From: Desulfobacterales bacterium
Lineage (GTDB): Bacteria > Desulfobacterota > Desulfovibrionia > Desulfovibrionales > Desulfothermaceae
Direction of reading: 5' to 3'
Assembly: GCA_027064715.1 (NCBI GenBank)
Contig: JAMOPG010000201.1
Span: 1 to 33,778, forward strand
DNA length: 33,778 bases
The position numbers were made by a program, and so were the translations under genes. How positions within the stretch are numbered: the stretch's first letter is position 1; every line of letters begins with the position of its first letter. The notes beneath the pieces were generated by a model. The model did no database searches. It was not told where the DNA came from and saw nothing but the letters and a program-made list of their open reading frames with translations. Below, in pieces: positions 2,173-3,748 of the stretch.

Positions 2173-3549
2173 TTAGATACCAAGTATTATTTTTGCTGTG
2201 GTAAAAAACACAAAAAGTCCTGTAATATCAACTATGGTAGTCAATGCAGGACTAGCAATGACCGCAGGATCCTTGTTAAATCTTGCTGCAATTAATGGCA
2301 AGGCAGCACCTATCAATGTTGAACTCACAACTTGAATACATAAAGCAATACTCACGGCAGCTCCTATCTTTTCTAATGGTATATTAGATGAATTTGTGTA
2401 ATAATATATAAAAACTCTAATCAATGCAACCATTGCCAAAGTTAATCCCAACAATAAAGCAACCTTAAACTCCTTAAATAAGACCTTAAAACAATCTCCG
2501 GGAGTTATCTCTTTTAATGCCAAAGCCCTTACAACTAGTGTAGCAGATTGACTACCTGTATTTCCCCCTGTATCAGCCAACATTGGCATAAAGGTAGCTA
2601 ATATAGTAAACTGTACTAATACCTGTTCAAATCTTTCCACAATAAATCCAGATACAAGACCAAGCAGAGCAAGTAAAATGAGCCAACCACATCTGTTCTT
2701 AAAATGTTCAATAACAGGTGTTCTCATATATGCACCAGCTTCATGAGAACCTGTAATTGCCATAAGTTTTTCCATGTCTTCAGTGTGCTCTTGAGTTAGG
2801 ATATCCATTGCATCATCATATGTGATTATACCTACCAATGCATGATTATCATCTACTACAGGTAGAGCTATTAAATCATATTTTTGGATCTTTCTAGCAA
2901 CCTCTTCCTGGTCTTCAAGTACATGGGCATAGATCAGATCCTTATTCATTATCTCTTTAACTAATGTATCTGGTCTAGCCAGTATAAGATCTTTTAATGA
3001 GACAAAGCCTAAAAGCCTTCTATCATCATCTACCACATAACAATAATAAATGGTCTCTTTGTCTGGGGCCTCTTTTCTGAGTTTTTCTAATGCTTCTTTG
3101 ACATTGATATCAGGAGGAAGAGTGGCATAATCTGAAGTCATAACTGCACCAGCAGTACCCTCAGGATATGACGAGAGCCTTCTAATATCTTCTCTTTCTG
3201 CCTGTGCAATTGCTGGCAAAAGGGTTTCTTTTAATTCCTCTGGGAGTTTCTTCAAAAGATCAACCCTATCATCAGGAGACATCTCAGAGATAAGCTCAGC
3301 AAGTTCTTGCCTTGACAAAGATTCTGTTAATTGTATTTGAAGATCCAGATCTAAATGGCTAAAGATCTCAGCTCTAAGATCAGGATCCACCATCTTAAGT
3401 AGCTGCCATATCTCTTCACGTGTTAAAGGAGAGATAAATTCAGCTACTAAACCAGGATGGGTGCTTTGACAAAACTCTTGGATGGCTTTTTTATCGTTAT
3501 TTTTTAGAAACTGCCTTATTTCAGGAATTAATAAAGGATTTTTGGTCAT
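2173..3549 (-). CDS. mgtE: MgtE-family magnesium transporter
   Basis: A 458-residue inner-membrane Mg2+ channel/transporter. Order of domains: a helical, acidic MgtE N-domain (about 1-130, with the repeated 'SHLDLDLQIQL...LISEMSPDDRVDLLKKLP' type helices), tandem CBS domains (about 130-255, 'VVDDDRRLLGFVSLKDL' and 'VVDDNHALVGIITYDDA'), and a transmembrane domain of five helices (about 280-458). The TM domain holds the family signatures ADTGGNTGSQSATL and TTIVDITGL, whose aspartate lines the Mg2+ pore in characterised MgtE. Length is standard. The start is fixed by GGAGG six bases upstream. That Shine-Dalgarno is buried in a long hairpin, so expression is very probably controlled at translation (see the leader entry). 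It heads the operon mgtE-cinA-pgeF. Confidence 0.95.
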   Translation of the reverse strand: MTKNPLLIPEIRQFLKNNDKKAIQEFCQSTHPGLVAEFISPLTREEIWQLLKMVDPDLRAEIFSHLDLDLQIQLTESLSRQELAELISEMSPDDRVDLLKKLPEELKETLLPAIAQAEREDIRRLSSYPEGTAGAVMTSDYATLPPDINVKEALEKLRKEAPDKETIYYCYVVDDDRRLLGFVSLKDLILARPDTLVKEIMNKDLIYAHVLEDQEEVARKIQKYDLIALPVVDDNHALVGIITYDDAMDILTQEHTEDMEKLMAITGSHEAGAYMRTPVIEHFKNRCGWLILLALLGLVSGFIVERFEQVLVQFTILATFMPMLADTGGNTGSQSATLVVRALALKEITPGDCFKVLFKEFKVALLLGLTLAMVALIRVFIYYYTNSSNIPLEKIGAAVSIALCIQVVSSTLIGAALPLIAARFNKDPAVIASPALTTIVDITGLFVFFTTAKIILGI

Positions 3550-3712
3550 GGTTCACCTCCTAAATGACCGGATTTTATCCCCGGTCCTGGAGGTGAACTT
3601 CAAAAGTTATTTCAAACTCTCCTAGGACCAGGGACAAAAGGATATACATCTTCTACTGTCGGGATCAGGCATAATTATGACTTCTCCTGCTTAAGTTATA
3701 TCTAAATTTAAA
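3550..3712 (-). promoter_or_regulatory. Riboswitch-like leader of mgtE with two exclusive structures; not an M-box
   Basis: OFF structure: GTTCACCTCC (3598-3589) pairs perfectly with GGAGGTGAAC (3560-3551), burying the mgtE Shine-Dalgarno. An inner stem GACCGG/CCGGTC (3586-3581 with 3571-3566) extends it. ON structure: CCCTGGTCCTAGGAG (3633-3619) can pair with CTCCAGGACCGGGG (3592-3579), with one bulge and one G-U. That would consume the anti-Shine-Dalgarno and the inner stem and free the ribosome site. The remaining 80 or so bases upstream (3634-3712) could be the sensing part. None of the conserved M-box blocks could be found. Function in Mg2+ sensing is inferred from the gene controlled. 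Confidence 0.7.
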
Positions 3713-3718
3713 AAATAG

Positions 3719-3748
3719 TATATATAACCTCTTTTAAAAAAAAATCAA
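3719..3748 (-). promoter_or_regulatory. Probable promoter of mgtE-cinA-pgeF
   Basis: Minus strand: TTGATT (3748-3743) and a TATATA-type -10 region (within 3719-3726, spacer 16-18). This predicts a start near 3712 and a leader of about 160 bases, long enough for a structured control element. The -10 is repetitive, so the exact box is uncertain. The rest of the 3550-3855 gap holds nothing else recognised. Confidence 0.5.

Follow-up and report, generated by a model that had tools for sequence, protein, structure and literature searches.

The mgtE gene in the DNA analysed here (a stretch of 33,778 nucleotides, hereafter the window) is probably governed by translational attenuation through a leader peptide, in which the ribosome would act as the sensor of Mg2+. 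The mgtE leader can form two mutually exclusive hairpins, one of which (OFF) hides the mgtE Shine-Dalgarno (SD) sequence while the other (ON) takes up the strand that does the hiding. Because the end of a conserved leader open reading frame (ORF) forms the upstream arm of the ON hairpin, sensing most likely falls to the translating ribosome and not to an RNA aptamer. The features are as follows:

2173..3549, minus strand: mgtE, encoding a Mg2+ importer of 458 aa (TIGR00400 and Pfam).
3560-3551, minus strand: OFF hairpin, strand with the mgtE SD, GGAGGUGAAC (sequence and folding; match of covariance model R1 at 3544-3609).
3566..3586, minus strand: OFF hairpin, inner stem-loop, 3586-3580 with 3572-3566 (folding; covariation).
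3598-3589, minus strand: OFF hairpin, anti-SD arm, GUUCACCUCC (folding; covariation over 42 leaders).
3592-3573, minus strand: ON hairpin, 3' arm, CUCCAGGACCGGGGAUAAAA, common to the OFF hairpin (folding).
3639-3619, minus strand: ON hairpin, 5' arm (antisequester), UUUUGUCCCUGGUCCUaGGAG, made up of the final leader codons, the stop and 3 nt more (20-bp helix).
3672-3622, minus strand: leader ORF, MPDPDSRRCISFCPWS plus stop, 16 codons (read directly; relatives have related leaders).
3655..3657, minus strand: conserved serine codon AGT, following the acidic motif (AGT bias among leaders).
3658..3669, minus strand: Pro-Asp-Pro-Asp codons, the proposed ribosome-destabilising motif (conservation of acidic residues and [DE][DE]PG[PS] across loci; EPDP of E. 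coli MgtL).
3688-3684, minus strand: SD of the leader ORF, AGGAG (sequence; SD-like sites in relatives too).
3719..3748, minus strand: weak, putative promoter-like element TTGATT-18-TATATA (ad hoc scan).

The mgtE product scores 397 bits against TIGR00400 (cut-off 233 bits) and carries the Pfam domains MgtE, MgtE_N and CBS. The promoter-like element, of which the same ad hoc scan found similar examples in loci L003 and L032, would put the RNA start approximately 35-40 nt upstream of the leader ATG; a stricter scan for sigma-70 promoters found none.

The OFF stem consists of exactly the 10 bp that a previous, sequence-only reading of this DNA had described (3598-3589 with 3560-3551), burying the mgtE SD, and the inner stem of that reading is also present, with a size of 7 bp instead of 6. 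The alternative pairing, described there as a 15-base complement between 3619-3633 and 3579-3592, is real but longer, with 20 bp in which 3639-3624 and 3622-3619 pair with 3592-3573 and A3623 is bulged. Compared with dinucleotide shuffles, the OFF hairpin alone (−28.9 kcal/mol) has a z of −4.7 and the ON hairpin alone (−33.6 kcal/mol) a z of −5.7, with none of 200 shuffles as stable as the latter. When the anti-SD arm is paired with the upstream segment, the energy is −29.3 kcal/mol, vs. −13.5 kcal/mol for shuffled upstream sequence (z −5.9). Both folds need 3592-3573, which means that they cannot coexist, and the layout of a translational on/off switch seen in the earlier reading is borne out by two exclusive folds at the mgtE SD. 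That the hairpin hides an SD points to control at translation. For the 153-nt leader, the minimum free energy fold is OFF and the centroid is ON; naked RNA would tend toward ON, since the ON hairpin is finished first in transcription and is more stable.

The same reading had placed a sensing domain in 3634-3712 and proposed a candidate new riboswitch class, and neither idea is supported: the stretch contains the SD and most of the 16-codon ORF, the N-terminus of which is conserved as protein, and a conserved ORF stands where a conserved, structured non-coding aptamer would be expected. An aptamer 5' of the anti-SD arm that decides between the folds by direct sensing of Mg2+ or some other ligand would be compatible with two exclusive folds and an SD-hiding hairpin. 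It would also agree with the Rfam search of the window leader, which, in line with the earlier failure to recognise an M-box or other known class, gave no family at gathering score and nothing plausible at E ≤ 10. However, the candidate space for the aptamer is taken up by a ribosome-binding site and by an ORF in which the amino acids are conserved while third codon positions vary freely, same-genus relatives have no common structured element 5' of the ORF, and their sequence there is AT-rich and divergent save for a promoter-like element. We consider a new riboswitch class very improbable.

The leader ORF (ATG CCT GAT CCC GAC AGT AGA AGA TGT ATA TCC TTT TGT CCC TGG TCC TAG) has its own SD, lies 5' of a Mg2+ importer gene, has conserved acidic and proline codons close to its N-terminus, and overlaps one of the two exclusive folds, with the final codons and the stop doubling as the ON arm. 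It is presumably translated, and its translation is presumably coupled to folding of the RNA. Leaders at the matching place in the same genus start with MIDPDSRR..., MSDPDSPR... and MPDPDSRR..., the last of these in a genome in which mgtE is broken by stop codons and the leader is intact. In the other families of the order the starts are MSESDGSHSC, MEEGSS, MDEGGSS, MDLPSS, MDEGPP, MDPDGS and MSEPGSS.

Most of the 80 nearest mgtE loci (records with one genome per species) carry such an acidic leader; at some of the mgtE loci no leader can be seen. Cultured carriers include Desulfatibacillum alkenivorans (L087) and Desulfoluna spongiiphila (L081). By record title, leader loci belong to Desulfobacterota, Acidobacteriota (Aminicenantes), Planctomycetota, Lentisphaerae, Kiritimatiellae, Spirochaetes, Ignavibacteria, WOR-3, Fermentibacteria, Neomarinimicrobiota and others, although single phylum labels may be wrong because most loci are metagenome-assembled. 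Two motifs recur among the leaders, an N-terminal one of the type M-x-[DE]-S-D-G-S-H-S-C and a central [DE][DE]PG[PS]. Identities in the DDPGP motif are 0.91, 0.92 and 0.55 at the three codon positions, so that variation falls mainly on third positions, and a segment-wise test gives a pN/pS of 0.26 across leader codons 2-11. Whole ORFs give a pN/pS of only 0.33-0.93, probably owing to an RNA-level constraint on the 3' half; this half shows no conservation as protein, which fits an RNA role. At locus L032 (G001:C1), in-frame stops interrupt mgtE, and the leader peptide and hairpin are intact.

The SD-hiding hairpin is common to 42 leaders from many phyla, with 45 double-change cells vs. 15.2 in shuffles (15 of 17 pairs) and pairing in 84% of cells vs. 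at most 51% in slid versions. This covariation count is probably an underestimate, since MAFFT misaligned some inner stems of the alignment (A2). The signal was repeated on further matches, where 18 double-change cells compare with 5.3. For the antisequester, the anti-SD arm pairs upstream better than with shuffled upstream sequence in 79 leaders (mean z −1.8, 35% with p < 0.05), the result being individually non-significant in about two thirds of leaders and the pooled p-value being too small because the sequences are kin. The best upstream partner of the anti-SD arm is usually the final leader codons. In Aminicenantes, 95.6% of the cells of the ON helix are paired, vs. at most 49% when slid, and four related sequences carry a C-G to U-A double change, which may be a single event. 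Rfam searches at gathering and relaxed thresholds found no riboswitch and no M-box at any leader examined; the relaxed matches, mostly eukaryotic microRNA models fitting a long hairpin, were dismissed.

The geometry of the leaders is in keeping with a ribosome that acts on the ON arm. The leader stop codon and the anti-SD arm are separated by 12 nt in both median and mode (interquartile range 11-15.5, n = 63), which is about where the leading edge of a terminating ribosome would be. The window leader, with 16 codons, is shorter than most leaders and without DDPGP, and its distance is 28 nt, not 12. Assuming the usual footprint, a ribosome that has the stop codon in the A site should span about 3639-3612. 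The terminating ribosome should thus cover the ON arm and leave the anti-SD arm free.

We propose the following scheme, in which drop-off gives ON and completion gives OFF, because the design matches those described for mgtL, where EPDP destabilises ribosomes at low Mg2+ and completion of the leader represses mgtA (PMC11282234, PMC11552253), and for mgtQ, where the mgtB ribosome-binding site is masked by a stem-loop on which acidic codons act (PMC8092293). Ribosomes would initiate on the 16-codon leader and, at adequate Mg2+, complete it, so that the ribosome covers 3639-3619, the ON hairpin is blocked, and 3598-3589 pairs with the mgtE SD (OFF). At low Mg2+, ribosomes would be destabilised at Pro-Asp-Pro-Asp and leave or stall early, and this early loss would free the ON arm to capture the anti-SD strand, allowing mgtE to be translated.

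The RNA logic would be unchanged if the ribosome stalled upstream of the ON arm instead of dropping off, either through nascent-chain arrest (DDPGP, SDSDGSHSC) or at slow AGT serine codons, the pause being set by Mg2+ or some other cue. Specific residues are indeed strongly conserved beyond plain acidity, and AGT makes up 64 of the 92 serine codons at leader positions 5-11, compared with 17 of 186 in other parts of the leaders and 199 of 2259 in mgtE. The window peptide, however, is left with only PDPDS of the conserved residues, the position of the motif is variable, and the acidic/Pro leaders of known Mg2+ importers work via destabilisation; we therefore regard stalling as unlikely. The AGT bias nevertheless points to a codon-level constraint that drop-off at acidic residues leaves unexplained. 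The DDPGP core (e.g., L048, L051, L068, L113) is also similar to the NPGP core of 2A “stop-go” peptides, a likeness that is probably chance convergence on a slow Gly-Pro step.

As to the signal, scarcity of charged tRNA (Pro, Ser, Cys) instead of Mg2+ would be the cue in amino-acid attenuation or simple translational coupling, which the recurrent Pro and Ser codons and the response of Salmonella mgtP to charged tRNA-Pro (PMC8092293) would suit. We give this reading hardly any credence, as the acidic residues are the most constant feature, the repeated codon differs from leader to leader, and the partner genes found are Mg2+ importers.

One of the described systems nearest in design to the window leader is mgtQ of Salmonella (PMC8092293). 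Both have a short acidic ORF ahead of a Mg2+ importer gene, an importer ribosome-binding site masked by a stem-loop with an exclusive alternative, and control at translation; the Asp/Glu codons of mgtQ are needed. The mgtQ ORF, though, has 8 aa, lies within an operon and overlaps stem region 1, and its translation is needed for ON, whereas here the end of the ORF is itself the antisequester (region 2, not stem 1), the peptide is unrelated, the target is MgtE, and the hosts belong to other phyla. The full mgtQ layout (mgtC-mgtB intergenic position, 1:2/3:4/2:3 pairing, stem 1 in the ORF) is absent from the window, and there is no mgtC among its neighbouring ORFs. The mgtL leader of mgtA (E. coli and Salmonella) has an N-terminal EPDP that resembles PDPD, as well as two exclusive leader folds, and its efficient translation represses the importer, as proposed here; it works via Rho-dependent transcription termination, whereas here a hairpin hides the SD, and past the short motif there is no sequence homology with the window leader. 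Similarly, corL of corA is a short leader ORF with translation inverse to expression of the Mg2+ transporter (PMC11552253), but it is Rho-based, has few acidic/Pro residues and serves a different gene. The M-box (ykoK, RF00380) has the same gene target, in that it regulates mgtE, along with other Mg2+ importers, in many bacteria, but its covariance model does not match the window, and the sensor region here is coding.

We ran a covariance model (R1), built from the SD hairpin of the 42 leaders, on 395 genomes of the phylum. R1 finds the window at 3544-3609 with 36.9 bits, and 25 of its 26 matches at E ≤ 1e-4 precede mgtE, mgtA or NRMT genes: 13 lie before mgtE, 10 before genes for a Mg-translocating P-type ATPase, 2 before an NRMT-type transporter or its remnant, and 1 before an unrelated gene. 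Several of the genomes with the 13 mgtE matches contributed sequences to R1, while the mgtA matches are outside the training set. As a control in the same loci, a leader with SD hairpin was found at 38 of 67 mgtE genes vs. 2 of 287 unrelated genes, the latter count having initially been 6 positives, 4 of which turned out to be mgtE copies. Matches weaker than approximately 1e-4 are mixed, with L150, L151, L156 and L158 before mgtE or mgtA; L148, L149, L152, L153, L157 and L159-L168, with unrelated genes downstream, were taken as chance, as was L147 (9.9e-5).

The P-type ATPase genes, for which TIGR01524 is the best model, follow the hairpin directly or after a short ORF, and several mgtA leaders encode a 45-aa peptide nearly identical to that of mgtE leaders (L124 vs. 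L125). Ahead of mgtA, the hairpin often controls the short ORF and not mgtA itself (L124, L129, L135, L137, L139, L143, L154, L158), and in L124 and L135 this ORF starts MgtE-like (MKNKHPLFIPD and MKNPFIVPGF, respectively), as if the module had travelled with the first mgtE codons. At L155 and L169, both in one genome (G363), the hairpin is followed by a 66-aa ORF of no assigned family, an Nramp-family gene and a gene for a PRC-barrel/MgtE_N protein, the second of the two NRMT-like transporter copies being broken. The best solved relative of the Nramp-family gene is 7qia (9e-67, the next at 3e-16), which we take to be EleNRMT. EleNRMT is a Mg2+ transporter (PMC8806188).

A leader peptide for mgtE is described in none of the open-access papers found, and the leader region has no entry in Rfam, Pfam or NCBIfam. 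Searches of the leader peptides themselves against Pfam and NCBIfam gave no entry, one Pfam query having been padded with four arginines and thus not being a clean test. By sequence, the leader peptides appear akin to one another and not visibly related to the mgtQ and mgtL peptides or to any annotated family. In the papers found, accounts of Mg2+ sensing via ribosome instability on acidic peptides are confined to enterobacteria; what appears to be the same logic, here present in many phyla and ahead of Mg2+ importers from three unrelated families, suggests that the ribosome is widespread as a gauge of Mg2+. A broader view, on which we are evenly divided, is that a homologous leader-peptide family (N-terminal SDSDGSHSC and/or central DDPG[PS]) and the SD-hiding hairpin that goes with it would form a general Mg2+ sensor in many phyla, in which the ribosome does the sensing and the module has passed among MgtE, P-type ATPase and NRMT importers, and that the conserved AGT serine codon would mark an undescribed feature of the sensing step. 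The leader set offers many natural variants for working out the sequence rules of ribosome destabilisation, and the covariance model together with the peptide is a hallmark for finding Mg2+ importers.

Two further observations concern the surroundings of these leaders. In L059 and L062 (Aminicenantes), tandem mgtE paralogues (at approximately 1.2-2.6 kb in these loci) each have their own leader peptide and hairpin, and at two unrelated loci a fluoride riboswitch lies within a few kb of mgtE (L035, 427-489, minus strand; L050, 1819-1886, plus strand).
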